The notes beneath the pieces were generated by a model. The model did no database searches. It saw only the letters and a list, made by a program, of their open reading frames with translations, and was not told where the DNA came from. The position numbers and the translations under genes are program-made. Below, piece after piece: positions 14,136 through 26,616 of a DNA stretch of 64,000 nt; position 1 is the stretch's first letter; each line of letters starts with the position of its first letter. Origin of the DNA: Allobosea caraganae (GTDB lineage Bacteria; Pseudomonadota; Alphaproteobacteria; Rhizobiales; Beijerinckiaceae); the NCBI RefSeq assembly GCF_003351345.1, contig NZ_QQTO01000042.1, positions 62,001 to 126,000 of the forward strand. The letters run 5' to 3'.

Positions 14136-15293
14136 TCAGGCGGTCTTTCGCCGCTGATCCGCCAGCAATCGCATGACGATTCCCGCGACCTTGCCCATGC
14201 CGTTGCGGTCGATCGTCGCGCTCGTCACCGAGCCCATGCGCAATTGCTCGTCGACGGCAGCGCCCAGCACCTCCGGCGTCAGCGGCTCCTCGCCCGACAG
14301 GCGCAAGCAGCGCGCAAGCCCGGCGCGCTCCATCGCCGCGGCGCGCACCGCCTGCTCGGTCTCGGCGCCGGCATCGAAGGGCACGACGATCGCGGGCCTG
14401 CCGGCGCGCACAAGGTCGAGCACCGTGTTGTAGCCGGCCTGGCTGATCGAAAGGGCGCAGCCCGCCAGCAGCGCCGGAAAATCCGGCCGCGCCCGCTCGA
14501 CCACGACATGATCCGGCGCCAGCCCTTGCAGCCGCGCGAACTCGGCCGCGGCGATGCCCTGCCCCGCCAGGATGCGCCAGCGCCTGTCGCCTCTCGATGC
14601 GGCAGCGGCAATCGCCAGCTCGAACAGCGGCAGCGAAGCCGCCGAGCCGCCACCGGAGACGATGACCTCGCCATGATCGACGACCGGGACGTCTTCCTCC
14701 GGCGCGGTGAGGTAGCCGGTATAGCACAACACCTTTGCCAGTTCTGACGAGACCGGCCAGGAGGCGTCCAGCGGCAGGAAAGCCTCGTCGCCATGGACCA
14801 GCACCGCGTCGAAATGCTCGGCGATTCGCCGCTCGGCCTCGACGATGCGATCGGCGCGCGGCGTCACCAGCACGTCGCGGATCGAGGACAGCGCGATGCT
14901 CTCCCGATTGGCCGCCTTGGCCGCGGCGATCAGGCCGAGGAACTCGTCGGCGAGCTGCCGGCGCCCGAACGGGAAATGCTCGGTCACAACCACGTCCGGC
15001 CGGATGTCAGCGGCCAGCTCGGCCAGCATCGCCTTGCGCAGAGGCCGCCTGACATCGTCGATCGGCCTGCCGTCTTCGTCGAGCAGGGTGCGGAAATCGG
15101 TGCCCTCGGTCTTGATCGGCGGCAATTGCACGAAGGCGATGCGGGCATCCGGCGCAGCGCGCAGCTTGGTGCCGCCGCTGGCGAGCGTGACCTCGAAGCC
15201 GCCTTCGACGAGAGCACGGCCAAGATGCATCGCCCTGACCAGATGGCCACTGCCGAGCAGATGCGTCACCGCGATCAGCGCGCGCGGCCTCAC
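14136..15293 (-). CDS. GT28/MurG-like glycosyltransferase
   Basis: 385 residues with a GT-B fold. The N-terminal half starts [24 protein letters not shown], as in MurG- and EF-like transferases that scan 'GxGHxxR'. The C-terminal half has the nucleotide-sugar region [21 protein letters not shown] and [15 protein letters not shown]. The start codon is GTG at 15293, overlapping the stop of the upstream GT4 gene (GTGA). The acceptor is unknown. It is the last of three translationally coupled genes (methyltransferase, GT4, this). Confidence 0.85.
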
Positions 15294-16546
15294 GGCCTGC
15301 CCTCACCGATCGAGCGCAGCAGCGCCGCATGGATGCGGTCGAGCCCGGCATCGGCCGAGAAATCCTCGCGCAGCCGCTTATAGGCGGCTCCGCCCAGCGC
15401 CATCCGGCGGGCCGGATCGACGGCCAGCCCGGCAAGCCCCTGGGCAAGCGCGGCGACGTCTCCCGGCGCGACCAGAACGCCTTCGACGCCCTCGCGCACG
15501 AATTCGGGAATGCCGGCGAAATCGCTGGCGACGATCGGCAAAGCCTGGCTCGCCGCCTCCATCACCACGTTGGGCAGGCCGTCGCGGTCGCCGTCCCCCG
15601 CCTGCTTGGAGGGCAGCACGAAGAGGTCGGCCGCACGCAGGGCCGTGATGACATCCTGCTGCGCCTTCGGTCCGGCCCAGGTGATGCGCTCGGCAAGGCC
15701 GAGCTGATCGGCCTGCGCCTTCAGCACCTTCAGGAGATCGCCGCCGCCAATATGGGTCAGCGTCCAGTGCAACCCCGTGGGCAGCTTGGCCAGCGCCGCC
15801 AGCAGGTCGTCAAAACCCTTCTTCTCGACGGCGCGGCCAATCGTGACGAAGCGCACCGGATCGGCCGGGTCACCGCCGTCGCGCGGCAGACGGTCCTCGG
15901 GCGGAACCGGAAAACGGGCGAGATCGAGCCCGTGATAGACCAGCGCCACCTTGTCCGGCCTGTCGGACAGGCGCTCGAGCTCGCGGTGGCCATCGACCGT
16001 GCAGGTCACGCCCCAGGCGGCATCCGCGATCTTCTCGCGCTTCTCCCAGTCCGGCGTGGTCCAGATGTCCTTGGCATGGGCCGAGAAGGAGAAGCTCAAG
16101 CCGCGCATCAGCGCCGCATAGCGGATCACCGAGGCCGGCGTGTGCAGGTAGTGAACGTGCAGATGCGTCACGCTTGGCGGAAGCTCGCGCGCCATCACGC
16201 AGGCTTGTCCGAGCCGACGGACGCGATTGCGCGAGGGATCGCGGGTCAGGTCGCGCAGGAAGACGCCAGCGACACGGAAGAAGGAGCCGTTCAGCAGCGC
16301 CCGCCCGAAACCCTTGAGCACGCGCAAGGGCGCATCGTGCAGGTATTCCGGCAGGTAATGCACCGGAGACGTAATCTCCTTGTGCATCAGATGCCGGGCC
16401 GCGTCGGTCGGCTGGCGCAGCGACCAGATCGCGAAAGGCAGACCCCGCCGCTGCAGGCCGAGCAGCTCCTGCGCGATAAAAGTCTCCGACAGGCGCGGAT
16501 AGCCCTTCATCGCGATCGCGACCCGCGGTTGCGGCTCCGCGCTCAT
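15290..16546 (-). CDS. GT4-family glycosyltransferase
   Basis: 418 residues, GT-B fold. The N-terminal half contains GYPRLSETFIAQELLGL, typical of exopolysaccharide transferases such as WcaL/AmsK, and HLHVHYLHTPA. The C-terminal half has TIGRAVEKKGFDDLL and the GT4 signature around E-x7-E (DGLPNVVMEAASQALPIVAS). It transfers a sugar from an activated donor to a growing envelope polysaccharide or glycolipid. It overlaps both neighbours by 4 bp, so the three genes act together. Confidence 0.88.
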   Translation of the reverse strand: MSAEPQPRVAIAMKGYPRLSETFIAQELLGLQRRGLPFAIWSLRQPTDAARHLMHKEITSPVHYLPEYLHDAPLRVLKGFGRALLNGSFFRVAGVFLRDLTRDPSRNRVRRLGQACVMARELPPSVTHLHVHYLHTPASVIRYAALMRGLSFSFSAHAKDIWTTPDWEKREKIADAAWGVTCTVDGHRELERLSDRPDKVALVYHGLDLARFPVPPEDRLPRDGGDPADPVRFVTIGRAVEKKGFDDLLAALAKLPTGLHWTLTHIGGGDLLKVLKAQADQLGLAERITWAGPKAQQDVITALRAADLFVLPSKQAGDGDRDGLPNVVMEAASQALPIVASDFAGIPEFVREGVEGVLVAPGDVAALAQGLAGLAVDPARRMALGGAAYKRLREDFSADAGLDRIHAALLRSIGEGRP

Positions 16547-17205
16547 CGCCGGCCGATCAGCATGAACCGGGTGTAGTTTTTGCTCGGCAGCGCCCCGGCA
16601 TAGAGCAGCTCGGACAAATCAGCCTGCGCCTTGAAGGCATCGAGCGACGCAACGCAGCTGCGATGGTCGGGCTCACGGAAATAGTCGTTCGATTGCAGCA
16701 GCAGCGGCAGGCCCGATGGCAGAGCGGCGAGCCAGGCGGGCACATCGTCGAGATGCTCGCAGCTCGTGTTGACGACGAGGCCGGGCGCAACCGGCTGGCT
16801 GGCGAAGTCGAGCGCCATCATGTCGGTCGTGATCGTGCGGAAGCGCCCTTCCGCGACATGCCGGCGGTTCAGCCGCTCGGCCACGGGCGCGCAGCCGGCG
16901 TCGATGTCGAGGCTGACGATCTCGCTGAGGCTGAGCCGCTCGTCGTCGAGCAGCATCGCGCCGAGCACGCCATACCAGGCGCCGAGCACCCAGACCGGCC
17001 CCTCCGGCCGCGGCATGGTCTGCGCGAGAGCATCGACCAGCCAGCGCTTCGAGGCGATCTGCTTGTGGTTGAACGCGACCCAGAGATCATCGGGCATCCC
17101 GTCGCCGACCAGCTTGGCGAGATCGGCCACGACCTTGCTGCCGGTCAGGGCCGCGACGCCGCGCAGGATGTCGTAGAAGGCGTCCGGTGGCGGGGCGGTG
17201 GTCAT
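16543..17205 (-). CDS. Class I SAM-dependent methyltransferase-like protein
   Basis: 220 residues. A Rossmann-type methyltransferase is suggested by VWVLGAWYGVLGA (about 71-83; a loose motif I), SLDID (motif II acidic end) and VVNTSCEHLDDVPAW (motif IV region). The glycine-rich loop is not canonical, so SAM binding is inferred from fold pattern. It is first in the overlapping trio with GT4 and GT28-like genes and may methylate a sugar or lipid made there. Confidence 0.68.
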   Translation of the reverse strand: MTTAPPPDAFYDILRGVAALTGSKVVADLAKLVGDGMPDDLWVAFNHKQIASKRWLVDALAQTMPRPEGPVWVLGAWYGVLGAMLLDDERLSLSEIVSLDIDAGCAPVAERLNRRHVAEGRFRTITTDMMALDFASQPVAPGLVVNTSCEHLDDVPAWLAALPSGLPLLLQSNDYFREPDHRSCVASLDAFKAQADLSELLYAGALPSKNYTRFMLIGRR

Positions 17206-17280: not shown

Positions 17281-19140
17281 CTAGACGTCTTCAGCCTCGG
17301 GCTTCGCCTTCGCCGGCCGCGCGCGGCTGCGCTTGGCGGGCTGGGGTGCTTCGGTCGGCTCGGGTGCGGCAAAGGTCTTCGCGACGGTCTCGGCCGCGCT
17401 TGGCTCGGCGGCGGCATCCGCTGCGACGGCTTCCGGCTCGTCCTCGCCCAGCGGAATCTGCGGCGCCCGCGCGAAGCCATAGGCCGCCATCGGCTTGTCG
17501 CGCCCCTTGATCGTGACCTTGAGCGCGGTCGCGCTGCTGAAGCTGCGGCCGGTGGCGGCGATGGTCGCCTCCGAGACGACGATGTCGGCAAGCACGCGCC
17601 TTGTCGCCGCCTCCATCTGCGCCGCGATCATCACCGTCTCGCCGACCGTGATCTCGTGCCGGCCGAGATTGTCGCTCTGGACGGCGCCGACCACGGCCTG
17701 GCCGCTATGGATGCCGATGCCGATCCTGAGCGGCAGCGGCAGGGCCGCGCCGTATTCACGGTTGAGCGCCTCGACCGCGAGCACGATGTCGCCGGCCGCC
17801 GCGATCGCCGAGACGCCGGCCCGGGCCGGGCTGCCCTCGAGCCCGAACACGGCCATGAAGCCATCGCCGTAGAACGCGTCGATGCGCCCGTCATGGGCGG
17901 TAATCGCCTGGCCCATCTCGTCGAAGAAGCGGTTGAGCAGGCCGATCAGCTCATGCGGCAATTGCCGCTCGGACAGCGCCGAGAAGGCGCGCAGGTCGGC
18001 CACCATCACGGTGAGCCCGCGCCGGCCGATGCTGCTGTCGAGCGCGAGGCTGCCCTGCGCGGCGCCGCCGAGCTTGGAGGCGAGCAGGATCTGGACCTGA
18101 AGGTCGTGGCGGGGCCTGATCTGGCAGGCGAGGCGGACGCGGTCCGGCGCCGAAATGCGGCGCAGCAGCTTGGCCTCGTTCGGCCCCGGCGAGGGCAGGC
18201 TCTCGGCCCCGTCGAGCACCAGCACGCGGCAGGTGGCGCAGCGCGCCCGGCCGCCGCAGAGCGCCGCGTGGGGAATGCCGAAGCGCCGGAACATCTCCAG
18301 CACGGTCAGGCCCGGCGCGATCTTGCGCACGCCATGGCCGACGAAGCGCACGGTGATGGCGCGCGTCGTGCGCATCCGGAACTCGCGCCAGCCGACGAAC
18401 AGCACGAAGCAGCCGACCAGGCCGAAGAAGGCCGATTTCGCCCAGAGCACGTTGCGCTCCAGCGTGTGGCTCTGCACCTCCGTCATCACCTCCGGCGGCA
18501 GCGCCATGCCCGCCGCCTCGCGCCCGCCGACGGCGAAGCCGATCAGGGCGAGCAGCGGGATCAGGATCGCCGCCAGCAGGAACGGGTCGCGCCAGCGCGC
18601 ATAGCCGTCGCGCCCGCGCAGCGTGAAGTGCAGGCCGATGATGCCGTGGACCCAGACCAGCAGCAGCAGCAGCGACTGCCCGCCGGCATAATGCGGCCAG
18701 AGCCGGCGCAGGACGGTGTGGTAGCTCTCGTCGAGATGGAACAGGCTGCCCATCACGCGGGTGTTGACGATGTGGTCGACCAGCAGCAGCGGGATGGCGA
18801 GGCCGAGCGCGATCTGCAGCATCTCACGCATTGGCATGCGGAAGGTCCGGCGCTGCGCCACCCGCAGCAGCGCGAAGACCGGGTGCACGATCAGCGCGCC
18901 GTAGAGCGCGACCGTGCCCGGCCAGGAATGCCAGAGCGCATAGCGCCAGTTCTGCACAGCCTCCATCGCCTCGAGCCCGGCGATGCCGGCGGCGTGGTTG
19001 ATGAAATGCGTCGTCGCGAAGACGAGCAGCACCAGGCCCGAGACCAGCCTGATGTCGCGGCTCCAGGAGGAGGCCTGCTCCATCCCGGCGCTGATGCCCG
19101 AATTGCCGCGCCTTGAACCGGCGCCCTGGGGCAGGCTCAT
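17281..19140 (-). CDS. Membrane 2Fe-2S / class III cyclase-like protein with altered catalytic residues
   Basis: 619 residues in three parts. (1) Six membrane helices within about 32-250, with buried His45, His49, His86, His123, His165 and His171, resembling the diheme-b anchor described for Sinorhizobium CyaC. (2) A [2Fe-2S] ferredoxin domain, about 260-355, with Cys295, Cys301, Cys304 and Cys339 (Cx5Cx2C...C). (3) A class III nucleotidyl cyclase domain, about 370-560. Metal-binding Asp382 and Asp426 are kept, but the adenine-selecting Lys is Ala422, the transition-state Asn is Met504 and the Arg is Gln508. The C-terminal 60 residues are Ala/Pro/Glu/Lys-rich. It is last in an operon after the pseudo-ABC and cNMP-binding genes. 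It is likely a redox-sensing protein; cyclase activity is doubtful. Confidence 0.82.
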   Translation of the reverse strand: MSLPQGAGSRRGNSGISAGMEQASSWSRDIRLVSGLVLLVFATTHFINHAAGIAGLEAMEAVQNWRYALWHSWPGTVALYGALIVHPVFALLRVAQRRTFRMPMREMLQIALGLAIPLLLVDHIVNTRVMGSLFHLDESYHTVLRRLWPHYAGGQSLLLLLVWVHGIIGLHFTLRGRDGYARWRDPFLLAAILIPLLALIGFAVGGREAAGMALPPEVMTEVQSHTLERNVLWAKSAFFGLVGCFVLFVGWREFRMRTTRAITVRFVGHGVRKIAPGLTVLEMFRRFGIPHAALCGGRARCATCRVLVLDGAESLPSPGPNEAKLLRRISAPDRVRLACQIRPRHDLQVQILLASKLGGAAQGSLALDSSIGRRGLTVMVADLRAFSALSERQLPHELIGLLNRFFDEMGQAITAHDGRIDAFYGDGFMAVFGLEGSPARAGVSAIAAAGDIVLAVEALNREYGAALPLPLRIGIGIHSGQAVVGAVQSDNLGRHEITVGETVMIAAQMEAATRRVLADIVVSEATIAATGRSFSSATALKVTIKGRDKPMAAYGFARAPQIPLGEDEPEAVAADAAAEPSAAETVAKTFAAPEPTEAPQPAKRSRARPAKAKPEAEDV

Positions 19141-19168
19141 TCACGCACCTGCATGGGCCTGGAACCTG

Positions 19169-19621
19169 TCAATGAACCTTCTCGCCGCCATGGAGCACCG
19201 AGTCGGCCAGCCTGTAGAGCCGCGAGGCGAGGTCGCGCGAGAGCGCGATGCTGAAGTCGGGAATCGTCTCCAGCAGCTCGAAGAACAGGTCCTTCGGCAG
19301 CCTCAGCACGACGAGGTCGGTCTTGGCGGTGAGCTCGCCGATATAGCGCTGGCCGCTGAGCAGCGGCACGTCGCCGAACAGGCTGCCGGGCCGGAACGTG
19401 AAGCGCCTGGCGTTGCCGTTGGCGCCCGGCTCCGCCAGCTCGGCCTCGCCCTCCAGCATGAAGTACACGCCTTCCGGCTGCTCGCCCTCGGCCAGGATGA
19501 TGCTGCCAGCGTTGAAATGCAGGCGCTCGCCCATCAGCGCCACGAGCTTCAGCCGCGGCCCCGGCAGGCTGCGGAACAGCGGAACGCTCCTCAGGCAGGA
19601 GAGATCGCTTTCGAGCGTCAT
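19169..19621 (-). CDS. Cyclic-nucleotide-binding domain protein (stand-alone)
   Basis: 150 residues, essentially a single cNMP-binding domain: LFRSLPGPRLKLVALMGE, then the beta-roll (AGSIILAEGEQPEGVYFMLEGEAEL) and a phosphate-binding cassette region LFGDVPLLSGQRYIGELTA. The canonical cassette FGEhALL-x-RxA is loosely kept: Glu becomes Asp and the Arg sits in QRY. There is no HTH DNA-binding domain, so it should act by protein contact. Its ATG overlaps the stop of the ABC gene (ATGA), and the cyclase-like gene follows 28 bp on. Confidence 0.87.
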   Translation of the reverse strand: MTLESDLSCLRSVPLFRSLPGPRLKLVALMGERLHFNAGSIILAEGEQPEGVYFMLEGEAELAEPGANGNARRFTFRPGSLFGDVPLLSGQRYIGELTAKTDLVVLRLPKDLFFELLETIPDFSIALSRDLASRLYRLADSVLHGGEKVH

Positions 19622-22389
19622 GGTCGCGCCTCCATCCGTTCGGCGACCGGGCGCGGCGGCGACACGATGTCCCGTTCCGCCTGCTCTTCCCCGTTGCCGT
19701 CCTCGATCACGCCGGAGGTGCCGTGGAATACGATCCTCGGCGTGATGTCCTTGGCAAGACTAGCATCTCCAAGAAGTAGGAACAGTGTCACTCCAGCGCA
19801 ATGTTCGCGCAACCGGCGCACGATATCTGGGCCCTTGCTCGTCGTGGCCAGCAGGGCGGTGGGATCGAGCACCGCGATCTGCGGCGTCTTGATCAGCGCC
19901 TGGGCCAGCGGCACGGCGAATCTGAGCCGGGGCGGCAGGTAGCGCCCGCGGTTGCCGCAATCGGTGTCGAGCCCGAGCCGGTAGAGCTCCGCCTCCAGCC
20001 CCGAGCGCGCGAGCGCGGCCCGGATGATCTGCGCCACCTTCTTGCCGGCATCGGCGACGCCGAAGCCGATGCGGCCGAAGAGCAGGTTATCGCGCACGCT
20101 GGCGCCGTGCATGATCTTCTCGGGATCGTAGAACTCGATGTCTCCGGCGGCATCGCCCGGCAGATGCGCCTTGAAGCTGGCGCGCGCCCTGAGCAGGCGC
20201 CGCCGCAAGGGCTCGCCGACGAGGTTCAGCCTGTGCTTGGGCTCGATGTAGCCGAGCGCGAGCGCGACGAGGTCCCGCTCCGTCTCCGGATCGAGCGGCT
20301 GGCGCATGTCCTGCTTGGCCAGCGTCGCGGCGAGCTCGTTCAGCTTCTCCAGGTCGAAGCTCGCGCCGAAGGCGTAGCGCTCGAACAGCGCGTGGCCCTG
20401 CGGCAGGCCCTCGAAGATCTCGACCACGGTCGAGACGATCCTGGCGCCGACCTCGGCCAGCGGCTCGATCAGCGCCTCCGCCTGCAGGATGGCGCGGGCA
20501 TAGGGTTCGGTCAGCAGGCTCTCGTTGGCGAAGCGCCCGCTCTTGCGCGTGCCGAAGATCAGGTTCTCGCTGATCGTGGCGTTGGCGTTGTAGCTGTCGG
20601 GGTCGAAGGCCTGGACGATGCCCGCGACCTTGCTCTTGGCGAGCTCGGCGGCGACGGCCTGGCGCGCCTCGATGATGCTGTCGCGGACATGCGGGTCGAG
20701 CGGGGCGTGGAGCTTGCCGTCGAGGCCGAGCTCGTAGACGTCCTCGGCGACGCCGAGCACCTCCAGCACCTTCCTGATATGGGCTTCGAGATCGTCGCCG
20801 TCGGCGAGGCCGGCGCCCGCGTAGTCGGTCCAGTCGGCAGTGAACGGCACCGGCGTGTTGCCCGAGCGCAGCGCCTCGATGAAGCGGTGGTGCTCCTCGG
20901 GCGTCAGCCTGCCCTCCGGCCTGGCGCTCGGCCGGTGCCGCTTCAGCGGCAGCAGGATGTTGTCGCGCAAGGTGCCGTTGATGATCTCGCCGTCATGGCC
21001 GGCATAGCCGATGAGGTGGCTGGCGCGCTCGACCGAGAGCCGCCCGAGGTTGAGCCGGTCGATCATCACCCGGCCGGAATAGGACATGACCTGCCGGCCG
21101 AGGATGTGGCCGAGCACGTCGCGGGCGCCGCCATCGGGCCCGATGATCGCGACCGTGCCGGGCCGCGGCACGCGCAGCGTCAACGGCGTCAGCAGCGGCT
21201 GGCCGCGATTGTCGAGCAGCTCGACGTTGTCGAAGCGGATCTCGCCGGTCTCCGGCAGCCGGACGACGCCCTCGTCCTCGTCCAGGACCAGCGTCTCGTC
21301 GCTGTTGAACTGGCTGATCACCTGCTCGTACTTGATGGTGACGTCGTTGCGCTGCTGGTCCCAGTCGATCAGCTCCTTGATCGGCGGCGGCAGGTCGCGA
21401 TAGGCGGCGACGACCGCGACGAGCTGGCCGATGTCGAGCCGCCCCTGCAGCGCGAAATAGCCGCCGACCGCGTAGAAGAAGAACGGCGTGATCTGGGCGA
21501 GCAGGTTGTTCAGGAACTTGACCGCGAACTTGCGCTTGTAGAGCGAGTAGCGGATGTCGAAGAGCGTCCCGAGCCGCCCGGCGATGTCGGACTGGACATA
21601 GGCCGTCGCGCCATGGCCCTGGATGGTCGGCCCGGCATCGACCACCTCGCCGATGCGCCCGGCGAGCTGGCGCGAGACGATCTGCCGCTCGCGCCCGAGC
21701 CTGAGCTGCTCCTTGCGCAGGATCGGGATGATGATCGCCTGCGCGATGACGATGATGAGCGCGATCGAGCCGAGCCAGACGCTCTGCGCCATGATGAAGA
21801 CCAAGGCCGTCATCGCCTGGCTGAGCAGGAAGATCGGCTGGATGAAGGCGTCGCCGACGAAGCTGCCGATCGGCTCGACCTCGTCCTTGATCATGCTGGC
21901 GACCTCGGCCGGCTTGACCGAGCGGATCTCCTCCGGCCGGAAGCGCATCAGCTGGCTGAACAAGTCGTAGCGCATGCGCCTGAGCATGCGCTCGCCCAAG
22001 ATGCCCTTGCGCAGGTTGATGACGTATTTGAAGGCGCCGTTGATCAGCACCAGCAGCAGGAAATACAGGCTCAGGCCGAGCAGCAGCCCGAGCTGGTTAA
22101 CCTGGAAGCCGTCGAACAGGTGGACGCGCGCGCCGCCGAGGAACCCCGGCAGGTGGAAGCTGAGGTCCAGCAGCGTCGCGGTCGTCTTGCCGTCCTTGAA
22201 CGCGCCGCCCTGGATCGCGTCGTTGACGATGCGCTTGGGCACGTCGAACGAGATCCAGTTGAACGGGATCGAGGCGAAGATGATCAGCAGGACGACGATC
22301 TGCTCGCCGCGGCTCTTCTGCCAGACATAACGGAAGAGGTTCGGCTCCAAGGGGTGGTCCTGTCTGGCGGCGCGTGCCCCCGCGCCCAT
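19618..22389 (-). CDS. ABC-type membrane protein with degenerate, expanded ATPase domain
   Basis: 923 residues. The first 360 are an exporter-type transmembrane domain (helices near 31-48, 101-122, 183-223, 297-330). The nucleotide-binding part (about 382-900) is about twice normal length and every catalytic motif is changed: Walker A is GPDGGARD (417-424, Lys to Arg, Ser/Thr to Asp), the Q-loop Gln is His465, the signature LSGGQ is LPPRL (818-822), Walker B is IAVLDPT without the Glu, and the H-loop His is Asp875. The motif after the Q-loop occurs three times (472, 604, 763). ATP hydrolysis is unlikely. ATG at 22389 follows AGG at good spacing. First gene of the three-gene operon. Confidence 0.83.
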   Translation of the reverse strand: MGAGARAARQDHPLEPNLFRYVWQKSRGEQIVVLLIIFASIPFNWISFDVPKRIVNDAIQGGAFKDGKTTATLLDLSFHLPGFLGGARVHLFDGFQVNQLGLLLGLSLYFLLLVLINGAFKYVINLRKGILGERMLRRMRYDLFSQLMRFRPEEIRSVKPAEVASMIKDEVEPIGSFVGDAFIQPIFLLSQAMTALVFIMAQSVWLGSIALIIVIAQAIIIPILRKEQLRLGRERQIVSRQLAGRIGEVVDAGPTIQGHGATAYVQSDIAGRLGTLFDIRYSLYKRKFAVKFLNNLLAQITPFFFYAVGGYFALQGRLDIGQLVAVVAAYRDLPPPIKELIDWDQQRNDVTIKYEQVISQFNSDETLVLDEDEGVVRLPETGEIRFDNVELLDNRGQPLLTPLTLRVPRPGTVAIIGPDGGARDVLGHILGRQVMSYSGRVMIDRLNLGRLSVERASHLIGYAGHDGEIINGTLRDNILLPLKRHRPSARPEGRLTPEEHHRFIEALRSGNTPVPFTADWTDYAGAGLADGDDLEAHIRKVLEVLGVAEDVYELGLDGKLHAPLDPHVRDSIIEARQAVAAELAKSKVAGIVQAFDPDSYNANATISENLIFGTRKSGRFANESLLTEPYARAILQAEALIEPLAEVGARIVSTVVEIFEGLPQGHALFERYAFGASFDLEKLNELAATLAKQDMRQPLDPETERDLVALALGYIEPKHRLNLVGEPLRRRLLRARASFKAHLPGDAAGDIEFYDPEKIMHGASVRDNLLFGRIGFGVADAGKKVAQIIRAALARSGLEAELYRLGLDTDCGNRGRYLPPRLRFAVPLAQALIKTPQIAVLDPTALLATTSKGPDIVRRLREHCAGVTLFLLLGDASLAKDITPRIVFHGTSGVIEDGNGEEQAERDIVSPPRPVAERMEARP

Positions 22390-22774: not shown

Positions 22775-24658
22775 ATGGACATCTTGCGGATCAGCGATTT
22801 GCGGATCGGCTTCACCGTGCACGGGTTCGCTCGCGACGTTGTGAAGGGCGTGAGCCTGCGCGTGCCGGCGGGCAAGACCGTCGCGCTCGTCGGCGAGTCC
22901 GGCTCGGGCAAGTCGGTGATCTCGCAGGCGATCATGGGCCTGCTGCCGCGCGCCGGCGGCATCACCGGCGGCGAGATCCGCTTCCGCGACCCGCTTGCGC
23001 CGGAGAACGTGATCGATATCGCCGCACTGGAGTCCGAGGGCCGCGCGATCCGCGACCTGCGCGGCGGCCGCATCGGCATGATCTTCCAGGAGCCGATGTC
23101 CTCGCTCTCGCCGGTCCACACGATTGGCAACCAGATCGAGGAGGCGCTGCAGCTGCACCGGCCGACGCCGAAGGCGCAGGCGCGCGCGCTGATCGAGGCC
23201 ATGCTGAAGCGCGTCGGCTTCAAGGACCCGCCGCGCGCCTACGGCACCTACTCCTTCGAACTCTCCGGCGGCCTGCGCCAGCGCGCCATGCTCGCCATGG
23301 CGCTGATCTGCCAACCGGCGCTGCTGATCGCCGACGAGCCGACCACCGCGCTCGACGTCACCATCCAGGCCCAGGTGCTCGACCTGATGCGCGATCTCCA
23401 GGCCGAGATGGGCATGGCGATCCTGCTCATCACCCATGACCTCGGCGTCGTCGCCAACATGGCCGACGAGGTCGTGGTGATCTACCATGGCGAGATCATG
23501 GAGAGCGGCCCGGTCGAGGACATCTTCCGCCGCCCGCGCCACCCCTATCTCAAGGCCCTGCTCAAGGCCTCGCCGCATTTCGACATGCGGGAGGGCGAGC
23601 GGCTGGTGGCGCTGCGCGAGGCCCGCCCGCGCCCGAAGGCGGCGATGCGCATCGCTCCGCCGCCCACTGCCAAGGTGGAGGCCACCCCGCTGCTCAGCGT
23701 GCGCGACCTGCGCAAGACCTACACGACCGGCTCGCGCAGCTTCTTGGGCAAGGGCACGCTCTCGACCATCACCGCCGTCGACGGCGTCAGCTTCGACATC
23801 GCGCGCGGCGAATGCCTCGGGCTCGTCGGCGAGTCCGGCTGCGGCAAGACCACGGTCAGCAAGATCATCATGCGCGCCGTCACGCCGAACGCCGGCTCGG
23901 TCACCTTCGACGACGGGCACGAGCGCCGCGACATCCTCGCGCTCAAGGGCGAGGAGCTCCGCCGTTTCCGCCAGAAGGTCCAGATGATCTTCCAGGACCC
24001 GGTCTCGTCGCTCTCGCCGCGCATGACCGTGATGAACATCCTGCGCGAGCCGCTGGTCATCCACGGCCGCGGCGACGGCGACGAGCAGTTCGCCCGCGTG
24101 CGCAGCCTGATGGAGGATGTCGGGCTCGACCCGCGCTTCCTCAGCCGCTACCCGCATTCCTTCTCCGGCGGCCAGCGCCAGCGCATCGGCATCGCCCGCG
24201 CGCTTGCGCTCGACCCCGGCCTGATCATCTGCGACGAGCCGGTCTCGGCGCTCGACGTCTCCGTGCAGGCGCAGATCCTCAACCTGCTCAAGGACCTGCA
24301 GTCCGAGCGCGGCCTGACCTTCCTGTTCATCTCGCACAACCTCGCGGTGGTGAACTACATGGCCGAGCGGATCGCGGTCATGGCCAATGGCCGCATCGTC
24401 GAGATCGCGCCGCGCCACCTGCTCTTCACCGCCCCGGCCCATCCCTACACCAAGGCGCTGCTGCGCTCGGTGCCCTTCGCCGACCTCGACCGCAAGCTCG
24501 ACTTCAAGCTGGCGGCGCCCGGCGGCGCTTCCGACATGGCCCATTGGGGCCCGGCCTTCCGGCCGGAGCCGAACGGCGCGGGACTGGCGCCGCTCTCCCT
24601 CGGCGACGGCCATTACGTGCTGGCGCGGCCGAGCGCCGACATCCGGGAGGTGGCATGA
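22775..24658 (+). CDS. Peptide ABC transporter, fused double ATPase
   Basis: 627 residues with two complete ABC ATPase domains of the oligopeptide class (DppD- and DppF-like, fused as in YejF/GsiA). Domain 1 has GESGSGKS near 40 and LSGGLRQR near 170; domain 2, after about 300, has GESGCGKTT near 350 and FSGGQRQR near 465. Both have DEP(T/V) Walker B and intact H-loops. It powers the importer encoded by the next three genes. Its stop overlaps the start of the binding-protein gene. Confidence 0.92.
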
Positions 24659-26616
24659 CGATCTCGCGTCCCTCGCGCCGTTCGGCGCTGAAGCTCGGCG
24701 CCGCCGCCCTGACCGCCGCCGGGCTGCCCAAGCTGGCGCTGGCCCAGGACGCCGCCGCCAAGCCGGCAAGCTATATCGACAGCCCGTTCTGGGCCGCGAA
24801 GGTCGCGTCCGGCCAGATGCCCTCGGTCGAGCAGCGCCTGCCCGCTCTGCCGCGGATCGTCCAGGTCGTCGCGCCGGAGCACGAGCCGGGCCGCCATGGC
24901 GGCACGATACGCACGCTGATGGGCGACCAGCGCGACATCCGCATGATGACGATCTACGGCTACACGCGCCTGCTCGTCTATGACGACAAGCTCGATCTCG
25001 CCCCCGATCTGCTCGAATCCGTCGCTGTCAAGGAAGGCCGCATCTTCACGCTCAAGCTGCGCGCCGGCCATCGCTGGTCCGACGGCAGCCGCTTCACCAC
25101 CGAGGATTTCCGCTACTGGTGGGAGGATGTCGCCAACAACAAGCGCCTTTCGCCCGGCGGCCCGCCGCAGCAGCTGCTCGCGGCCGGCGAGAAGCCGACC
25201 GTCGAGATCCTGAGCGAGACCGAGATCCGCTACAGCTGGAGCACGCCCAACCCGGTCTTCCTGCCCTCGCTGGCCGATCCGCAGCCGACCTATATCTACA
25301 TGCCCTCGGCCTATCTGCGGCAGTTCCACGAACGCTACGCCGACAAGGAGGCGCTGCACGCCCGGGTCAAGTCCGTCAGGGTCAAGGACTGGGGCTCGCT
25401 GCACGAGCGCTTCTCGCGCATGTACCGGCCGGAGAACCCGGAGCTGCCGACGCTCGACCCCTGGCGCAATCTGACGCCACTGCCGGCCGAGCAATTCACC
25501 TTCCAGCGCAACGCCTATTTCCACCGCGTCGACCAGAACGGCCGGCAGCTGCCCTATGTCGACCAGGTCACGATGACGCTCGGCACCGCCGCCTTGGTTC
25601 CGGCCAAGACCGCCGCCGGCGACAGCGACCTGCAGGCGCGCTACCTCCAGTTCGACAACTACACCTTCCTGAAGGACGCCTCGAAGCGGATGAACTTCGA
25701 GGTCAAGCTCTGGAAGCGGGCCGAGGGCGCCTGGTTCGCGCTGATGCCGAACCTGAACGCAATCGACCCGGTCTGGCGCGACCTCAACCGCAATGTCGGC
25801 TATCGCCGCGCGCTCTCGGTCGCGATCAACCGCAAGGACATCAACAAGGTCATCTTCTTCGGCCTGGCCAAGGAGGGTAACAACACCGCCCTGCCGGAAA
25901 GCCCGCTCTACGATGCCGAGAATGCGACCATGTGGACGCAGGCCGACCCCGCGCTGGCCAACCGCCTGCTCGACGAGATCGGCCTCGACAAGCGCGACAC
26001 GGACGGCGTGCGCCTGCTGCCGAACGGCCAGCGGCTGGAGTTCACCATCGAGACCGCCGGCGAGAGCACCGAGGAGACCGACATCCTCGACCTGATCAAG
26101 CAGGACTTCTACCATGTCGGCATCAAGATCTACCCGCGCTCGACCCAGCGCGACGTCTTCCGCCGCAGGATCACCGCCGGGCAGACGATCATGTCCGCCT
26201 CCAACGGCCTGGACAACGCGCTGGTCTCGGCCGAGATGGAGCCCGACGCGCTGGCGCCGACCTCCCCGGCCCAGTTCAACTGGCCGCGCTGGGGGCAGTA
26301 TTTCGAGAGCGGCGGCCACGAGGGCGAAGAGCCCGATGATCCCCAGGTCAAGGAGCTGGTCAGGCTCTACAAGGCCTGGCGGGTGAGCGCGACCCATGAG
26401 GAGCGCAGGGCGATCTGGCAGAAGATGCTGCGCATCAACGCCGAGCAGCTCTTCACCATCGGCGTGATCAACAGCACGCTCCAGCCCGTCGTCGTCTCGC
26501 GCCGCCTGCGCAACGTGCCGGATGTCGGGTTCTTCAGCTTCGAGCCCGGCGCCTTCTTCGGCCGCTACATGCCCGATACGTTCTGGTTCGACGACGAGCG
26601 GCAGGTCAAGAGCTGA
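24655..26616 (+). CDS. Peptide ABC transporter substrate-binding protein (family 5)
   Basis: 653 residues. It starts with a Tat-type signal ([24 protein letters not shown] region, about 8-31) and belongs to SBP family 5 ([44 protein letters not shown]). It is longer than typical DppA (about 535), with an insertion in the middle, as in the large binding proteins of some rhizobial importers. It binds peptides or related solutes in the periplasm. The ATG at 24655 overlaps the ATPase stop (ATGA). Confidence 0.9.

Follow-up and report, generated by a model that had tools for sequence, protein, structure and literature searches.

Three consecutive genes on the minus strand of the window, by which we mean the whole 64,000-nucleotide stretch of Allobosea caraganae DNA analysed here (contig NZ_QQTO01000042.1, positions 62,001 to 126,000), encode in this order an ABC-like membrane protein, a cyclic-nucleotide-binding (CNB) domain protein and a cyclase-like protein. 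The interpretation that we prefer, tentatively and at a probability of about 0.42, is that this operon represents a widespread membrane switch in a form that senses redox state and is chemically silent, and in which the signal would reach a non-hydrolysing ABC-fold protein by protein contact. The gene order, the gene fusions, the state of the motifs, the joint loss of motifs on one branch and the purifying selection on which this interpretation draws are all results of the computation. The three genes are:

19618..22389, minus strand: pseudo-ABC protein, 923 amino acids; open reading frame (ORF) with an MsbA/ABCB-like membrane domain and a split nucleotide-binding domain; Pfam ABC_membrane; profile match to ABCB structures; AlphaFold2 mean pLDDT 83.1
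19169..19621, minus strand: stand-alone CNB subunit with the cNMP-binding fold, 150 amino acids; Pfam cNMP_binding, E 1.5e-16; its start overlaps the ABC stop by 4 nucleotides
17281..19140, minus strand: redox pseudocyclase, 619 amino acids; ORF with a six-transmembrane (6TM) anchor, a [2Fe-2S] domain and a class III cyclase domain; Pfam Fer2 and Guanylate_cyc; begins 28 nucleotides after the CNB stop

The first-pass annotation of this DNA had described the three genes with a 4-nucleotide overlap followed by a 28-nucleotide gap, and the ORF calls confirm both coordinates and spacing. Two points go beyond it: the cyclase domain is devoid of its catalytic residues, and genes for a 220-amino-acid protein and two glycosyltransferases follow downstream on the same strand.

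The first protein contains an exporter-type transmembrane region (ABC_membrane, 50.4 bits against a cut-off of 28), and this is its only Pfam match; ABC_tran was not detected at E ≤ 0.001. Its parts are arranged as follows:

21295..22350, minus strand: membrane domain, residues 14-365; ratio of nonsynonymous to synonymous substitution rates (dN/dS) 0.06-0.23 in seven Bosea-type pairs
20935..21258, minus strand: nucleotide-binding domain, first half, residues 378-485, with the Walker A remnant GPDGGARD at 21118-21141; motif and profile alignment
20110..20934, minus strand: insert of ~275 residues that splits the nucleotide-binding domain; hhalign between internal segments
19675..20109, minus strand: nucleotide-binding domain, second half, residues 761-905, with the signature remnant LPPRL, the Walker B motif IAVLDPT and no H-loop His; motif and profile alignment

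The family profile matches solved ABCB exporters with a best E value of 7e-63. In the profile comparison residues ~370-485 and ~777-897 both align onto one canonical nucleotide-binding domain; therefore, the nucleotide-binding domain is split. The insert and its flanks comprise three related segments, starting TLRDNILL, TISENLIFG and SVRDNLLFG, whose pairwise hhalign E values of 2.6e-6, 4.1e-13 and 2.5e-8 are not calibrated against a database; in our reading, the segments resemble the start of the helical subdomain. A Foldseek search with the structural model of the window protein returned ABC exporters with E values down to 9e-13; since the query TM-scores of the 50 rows listed are only 0.25-0.40, it backs an ABC fold just in general. 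The best NCBIfam match is MsbA (E 5.4e-25), with 87.9 bits against a cut-off of 602. Among the matches listed, the closest relative is a protein of Bosea sp. LC85, 78% identical over residues 13-922.

The earlier view that this protein is no normal ATPase is borne out by its motifs. In the Walker A remnant the Lys is replaced by R423 and the Ser/Thr by D424; Walker B retains Asp 842 and carries P843 in place of the Glu; the signature reads LPPRL and the H-loop lacks its His. These replacements suggest that the window protein has no ATPase activity. The same motifs were followed through 141 loci, made up of 60 neighbourhoods from 150 genomes of the same order (own genome included), a set of 80 loci (the best 80 of at least 575 out of 591 matching stretches that encode a relative) and the window itself. 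The duplicates L042=L136 and L052=L176 were left in these counts, and neighbourhood genes were predicted with our own codon-usage gene finder, with approximate starts. The full Lys, Ser/Thr, Asp, Glu set occurs in none of the 139 scorable rows: the Walker A Lys is found in 17, Lys together with Ser/Thr in one (L088), the Walker B Asp-Glu in four and the H-loop His in two. A wider sample, in which 58 of 190 genomes of the class matched the ABC protein at E ≤ 1e-80 and 30 loci were returned (L182-L211), gave no full set in any of the 30 either; Lys is present in 17, Glu in 19, the H-loop His in 14 and Ser/Thr in none, with Lys, Glu and His together in eight. An acidic residue at the place of the Walker A Ser/Thr, combined with a non-acid at the Walker B Asp, was seen in 24 of these 30. 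The Mg site of the wider family is thus rearranged, and this family might still handle ATP; the window branch has lost more.

Heterodimeric ABC exporters with one degenerate site are known. The window protein might likewise be an ordinary ABC exporter whose ATPase is supplied by a partner subunit; BmrCD and TM287/288 are among the Foldseek hits, and ordinary exporters of the same genome, found as weaker matches (E 1e-16 to 6e-4), are candidate partners. We consider this very unlikely, since the split domain and the lost motifs are family-wide and the operon holds no second ABC gene of such kind. The only other family member in the genome, the paralogue C22:396574 (L038:6536-9604), also lacks the Walker A Lys, and a heterodimer in which this paralogue is the ATPase is thereby ruled out.

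The paralogue is a pseudo-ABC protein with a fused canonical CNB, 52% identical to the window protein over residues 17-485. It is divergent from genes for a CHASE2 cyclase, which keeps the metal Asp, the Asn and the Arg and not the Lys, and for a Crp-type regulator. The genome thus has a second version, one that possibly uses a nucleotide. The ABC-CNB fusion at L042/L136 has as neighbours a CHASE2 cyclase gene and the gene of an ion-transport protein that bears a CNB domain.

The CNB protein of the window has cNMP_binding as its sole Pfam match, so that the fold is present, and Pfam found no helix-turn-helix or other DNA-binding part in its 150 residues, as had been stated. A CNB gene lies directly after the ABC gene, on the same strand, in 129 of the 141 loci of this mostly alphaproteobacterial family. 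Eight ORFs, seven of them distinct (L038, L042, L136, L047, L088, L090, L096, L097), have the CNB fused to the ABC C-terminus; five of the fused proteins were scanned with Pfam, and each showed the cNMP domain (E 6e-14 to 2e-22), whereas no C39 peptidase was matched in the window protein or in these scanned relatives. Four loci are left: L068 reaches a contig end, the ABC frame of L108 is split, and the neighbourhoods of L169 and L166 show no CNB gene. Because fusions exist, a functional link between the ABC protein and the CNB is very likely. The proposal of a membrane system with the ABC-fold protein under CNB coupling thus holds as far as the link is concerned; its other part, control by a cyclic nucleotide, is not supported for the window. 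All 11 Bosea-type loci (L098-L108) have ABC, CNB and cyclase genes in the order of the window. A CNB start overlapping the ABC stop by 4 nucleotides is available in ten of them, L108, where the ABC frame is split, being the sole exception, and in 37 of the 80-locus set.

The third protein was annotated as a fusion of [2Fe-2S] and cyclase domains with membrane His residues, and this architecture was found again in detail:

18361..19053, minus strand: 6TM anchor with five invariant His (45, 49, 86, 123, 165), likely haem ligands; all five in 42 of 42 proteins
18076..18357, minus strand: [2Fe-2S] ferredoxin domain, Cys 295, 301, 304 and 339; Fer2, E 1.5e-7; four Cys in 42 of 42
17461..18033, minus strand: cyclase domain with metal Asp 382 and 426 kept, and Lys to Ala, Thr to Ile, Asn to Met and Arg to Gln replacements at catalytic positions; motif alignment

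Pfam does not match the 6TM part, which was assigned from the sequence and its conserved His and would bind haem and sense quinone. Forty-two proteins of this architecture, the window included, were scored, with cut-offs of 400 bits for [2Fe-2S] cyclases and 200 bits for other cyclases, lower-scoring ones being excluded from the motif counts. Besides the invariant Cys and His, both metal Asp are kept in 41 of the 42. The Lys, Thr, Asn and Arg are all kept in 15 only; the other 27 are degenerate, some of them retaining one or two of the four (Arg in L039/L110, Asn in L128/L140, for example). The window domain, in which all four are replaced, is predicted to have no cyclase activity.

The state of the cyclase is matched by that of the CNB. 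The phosphate-binding cassette of the window protein, FGDVPLLSGQRYIGELTA (19325-19378, minus strand; motif comparison), lacks the canonical Arg-Ser/Thr-Ala and reads D-Y-I-G at the acidic and Arg-Ser/Thr-Ala positions, and it was scored as non-canonical; a canonical cassette is present in 102 of 132 CNBs, the window counted. Beside a [2Fe-2S] cyclase, the cassette is canonical in 15 of 15 cases where the cyclase is intact and in none of 26 where it is degenerate (26 CNBs for 27 cyclases, as L169 has no CNB). Several of the 26, for example those of Ancylobacter, retain the cassette Arg and miss only the Ser/Thr-Ala; in all 12 Bosea-type CNBs, window included, the Arg is gone too. Loci without a counted [2Fe-2S] cyclase have a canonical cassette in 87 of 91 cases. 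The idea that a small nucleotide controls the ABC-fold protein therefore fits the wider family with its canonical CNBs, but is not supported for the window, where the cyclase Lys, Thr, Asn and Arg and the CNB Arg-Ser/Thr-Ala are missing; most relatives beyond the window's clade have retained these residues. In a quick tree of the ABC membrane domain, built from 62 of the 141 loci, the 27 loci with a degenerate cyclase form one clade (SH-aLRT 96); cyclase and CNB motifs were therefore lost jointly in a single event.

Catalytic motifs are gone from all three proteins, and the operon might be taken for a decaying relic. The selection test largely refutes this notion, which we reject as barely tenable. 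Over seven Bosea-type pairs, which share sequences, dN/dS is 0.03-0.24 in the cyclase domain, 0.12-0.40 in the 6TM part and 0.04-0.38 in the CNB; the C-terminal tail of the cyclase protein gave 0.29-1.17 in the six pairs with a value. All Cys and His are kept, the three genes stand in order in every Bosea-type locus, and the ABC frame is split in the L108 assembly only. The catalytically silent cyclase domain is under purifying selection and has therefore been kept for some role.

Whether the three proteins work together was also approached through their distribution. In the 150 genomes, an ABC relative (E ≤ 1e-60) is present in 59 and a cyclase relative (E ≤ 1e-30) in 50; both occur in 42, the ABC protein only in 17, the cyclase only in eight and neither in 83 (Fisher p ~1e-15, uncorrected for kinship). 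The idea of one system requires the genes to be conserved together; this is largely so for the ABC-CNB pair, adjacent or fused as described above, and the order of all three is more restricted, with a [2Fe-2S] cyclase close behind in 37 of the 141 loci. This number, which refers to cyclases at most 1.2 kb behind the ABC gene, counts the CNB-less L169 and omits L108; it is a maximum, as the ORFs were measured from stop to stop. A [2Fe-2S] cyclase is in view in 44 of 141 loci (33 of the 80-locus set and 11 of the 61 others). One may argue that three genes with separate jobs are carried on one transcript, the cyclase only sharing a promoter; it lies elsewhere in many genomes and is absent from 17 of the 59 with the ABC protein, which in turn is absent from 8 of the 50 with the cyclase. 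This explanation seems improbable to us in view of the co-occurrence in 42 of the 50 cyclase-bearing genomes, the loss of cyclase and CNB motifs on one branch, and the order kept in 11 of 11 Bosea-type loci.

The switch that we envisage would have as its core a protein of the ABC exporter fold, whose nucleotide-binding domain is split and non-canonical, together with a CNB adjacent to this protein or fused to its C-terminus. Most lineages have a canonical CNB, and 67 of the 141 loci show a class III cyclase gene; it is therefore probable that the ABC-fold protein there takes its state from cyclic AMP (cAMP), or from a nucleotide like it, produced nearby. In Bosea and its sister lineages, the cyclase would have turned into a pseudocyclase and the CNB into a non-canonical form. 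Quinone or redox state would be sensed by the haem anchor and the [2Fe-2S] domain and most likely relayed by protein contact, via pseudocyclase and CNB, to the ABC-fold protein, which may serve as a gate or scaffold when a lipid-linked glycan from the neighbouring GT4 and GT28 enzymes is handled. In support of this, the degenerate cyclase gene of the CNB-less locus L169 sits directly behind the ABC gene (L169:7923-12473), near which no CNB gene was found. Pushed to its end, the scheme becomes a line of pseudoenzymes only, from redox sensor to dead cyclase, dead CNB and dead ABC protein, by which respiration would gate a glycan-export step without messenger or ATP hydrolysis; the ancestor would have used cAMP, and contact would have replaced chemistry in one clade. 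This stronger version we regard as doubtful.

Several observations weigh against the proposed contact switch. The joint loss happened once, and the paired test rests on one independent pair; no independent repeat was found in the tree of 62 loci. Non-canonical cassettes also occur without a counted cyclase, in L058, L067, L069 and L109, the last of which has a truncated [2Fe-2S] cyclase at a contig end, below the score cut-off. The [2Fe-2S] cyclase is often unlinked: both proteins are present in 42 genomes, yet it is found in 11 of 61 clustered neighbourhoods, the window counted. L169 is a single metagenome assembly. In the AlphaFold model of a fused ABC-CNB protein (L136), the CNB part has no aligned rows and a block pLDDT of 23-63, so that this model does not bear on contact either way. 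No glycosyltransferase relative is in view in 25 of 112 loci with more than 6 kb on either side, and in the Ancylobacter group it is a peptide-ABC gene that comes after, in place of glycosyltransferase genes. Finally, the metal Asp pair is retained, so that nucleotide binding would still be allowed.

This last point leads to the main rival of contact signalling, in which a nucleotide still signals in Bosea: the cyclase domain would bind or make another nucleotide, and the CNB would bind a changed ligand. The CNB fold is retained in the window, and there is a precedent in HetC, whose CNB domain, according to the available part of the report, is stabilised by ppGpp, GTP and GDP, and not by cAMP (PMC10986499). 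We nevertheless judge such a changed nucleotide unlikely, though well short of negligible. The four substrate and transition-state positions are all replaced in the window. In the CyaC cyclase of S. meliloti, the accessible text describes K410A/T484A as having very low activity and R495A/N491A as silent (PMC10463352), and the replacements seen here vary by lineage, as after release from constraint. A cyclase paired with a CNB effector also recalls Pycsar phage defence, and PADLOC models of PycC (E 2.7e-15) and of the CNB part of TIR effectors (E ~1e-7) do match. These matches are limited to the general cyclase and CNB domains; the 150-residue CNB protein has no TIR domain, the cyclase is degenerate, and the neighbours recur in 11 Bosea-type loci, unlike those of a defence island. 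A Pycsar-like pair is scarcely believable on these grounds and was rejected.

The contact switch can be compared with several known systems. In cluster 1 of Beltz et al. 2016, exemplified by Rhodopseudomonas palustris Q132R4, class IIIb adenylate cyclases carry a ferredoxin domain and a cytochrome-b-like 6TM anchor, which is related there to haem-binding cytochrome b subunits. The window protein is like these in its domain order, its intramembrane His and the position of the ferredoxin between membrane and catalytic domain; unlike them, its clade lacks the catalytic residues, and the available portion of the article mentions no ABC-CNB link for cluster 1 (PMC4821796 for the statements on cluster 1). 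CyaC is likewise a 6TM diheme, quinone-responsive cyclase in complex with a CNB protein; it is active, however, its partners Clr and CycR are transcription regulators and not an ABC-fold protein, and the accessible text mentions no ferredoxin domain, in contrast to the [2Fe-2S] domain here (PMC10463352). HetC of Nostoc PCC 7120 is an ABC exporter with a CNB domain needed for its function; as far as the available part of the report goes, it differs in that it includes a C39 peptidase, has its CNB at the N-terminus and depends on its ATPase catalytic Glu (PMC10986499), as against a CNB that is separate or C-terminal and ATPase motifs that are lost in the present family.

The window ABC protein, with its split domain and missing catalytic motifs, is also unlike MsbA-type lipid flippases. 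The use of an ABC fold as a switch is familiar from proteins of the SUR/CFTR type, which regulate or conduct; these retain ATP binding at canonical sites and are not known to have a CNB partner.

The system had been called undescribed. Indeed, no ABC-CNB-cyclase system of such make-up was found in a literature search by titles and the starts of abstracts, with subscription journals mostly outside its reach, which is weak evidence of absence for the ABC-CNB family and its pseudocyclase form. The 6TM-[2Fe-2S]-cyclase architecture itself is already in print, in the available text of PMC4821796. The findings point to a family, large and uncharacterised, whose ABC fold is seemingly run by a cyclic-nucleotide-type domain, not by ATP hydrolysis. 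One clade would provide a natural experiment in which a second messenger was replaced by protein contact, with intact and silent versions that can be compared. If true, the scheme would tie respiratory redox state to envelope glycans.

The glycan part of the scheme comes from the genes downstream of the operon:

16543..17205, minus strand: conserved 220-amino-acid protein; not matched by Pfam even with the threshold at E 0.5; resembles a methyltransferase on visual inspection only
15290..16546, minus strand: GT4-type glycosyltransferase; Glycos_transf_1, E 9e-31
14136..15293, minus strand: GT28-type glycosyltransferase with a MurG-like C-terminal domain; Glyco_tran_28_C, E 1.9e-10

Relatives of all three continue the operon in 10 of the 11 Bosea-type loci, the sequence of L101 stopping earlier. 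Across the family, 104 of 141 loci have a GT4 or GT28 relative, as do 87 of the 112 with full flanks. The glycosyltransferase models were built from the first 61 neighbourhoods, and the counts there are partly circular because of this; the 80-locus set gives 47 of 62 full-flank loci, and the fairer figure, without the Bosea-type loci, is 37 of 52. For a rough baseline, the own genome (6.17 Mb) was searched with single proteins, which gave two GT28-type and 12 GT4-type matches, those of the operon included. Chance is a poor explanation of these neighbours, and a function of the ABC-fold protein in glycan handling would be consistent with them.

Other neighbours recur as well. Of the 112 full-flank loci, 39 show a metallo-beta-lactamase-fold gene (8 of 62 in the 80-locus set versus 31 of 50 in the 61-locus set); in several of L051-L095 such a gene often follows ABC-CNB together with another class III cyclase, with no adjacent [2Fe-2S] cyclase. 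A metallophosphoesterase gene of one cluster is found nearby in L073 and L085, the latter copy being confirmed by Pfam. Both kinds of neighbour would fit nucleotide turnover in the canonical lineages. Upstream of the operon and divergent from it, the plus strand of the window (22775-26616) encodes a peptide-type ABC ATPase with two ABC_tran stretches and a family 5 solute-binding protein, and a relative of the ATPase gene occupies the same upstream, divergent position in 11 of 11 Bosea-type loci. A conserved neighbour of the glycosyltransferases, ~250 amino acids long and with a weak DUF2334 match (L075:14457-15215), is found in 22 of the 61 clustered loci.

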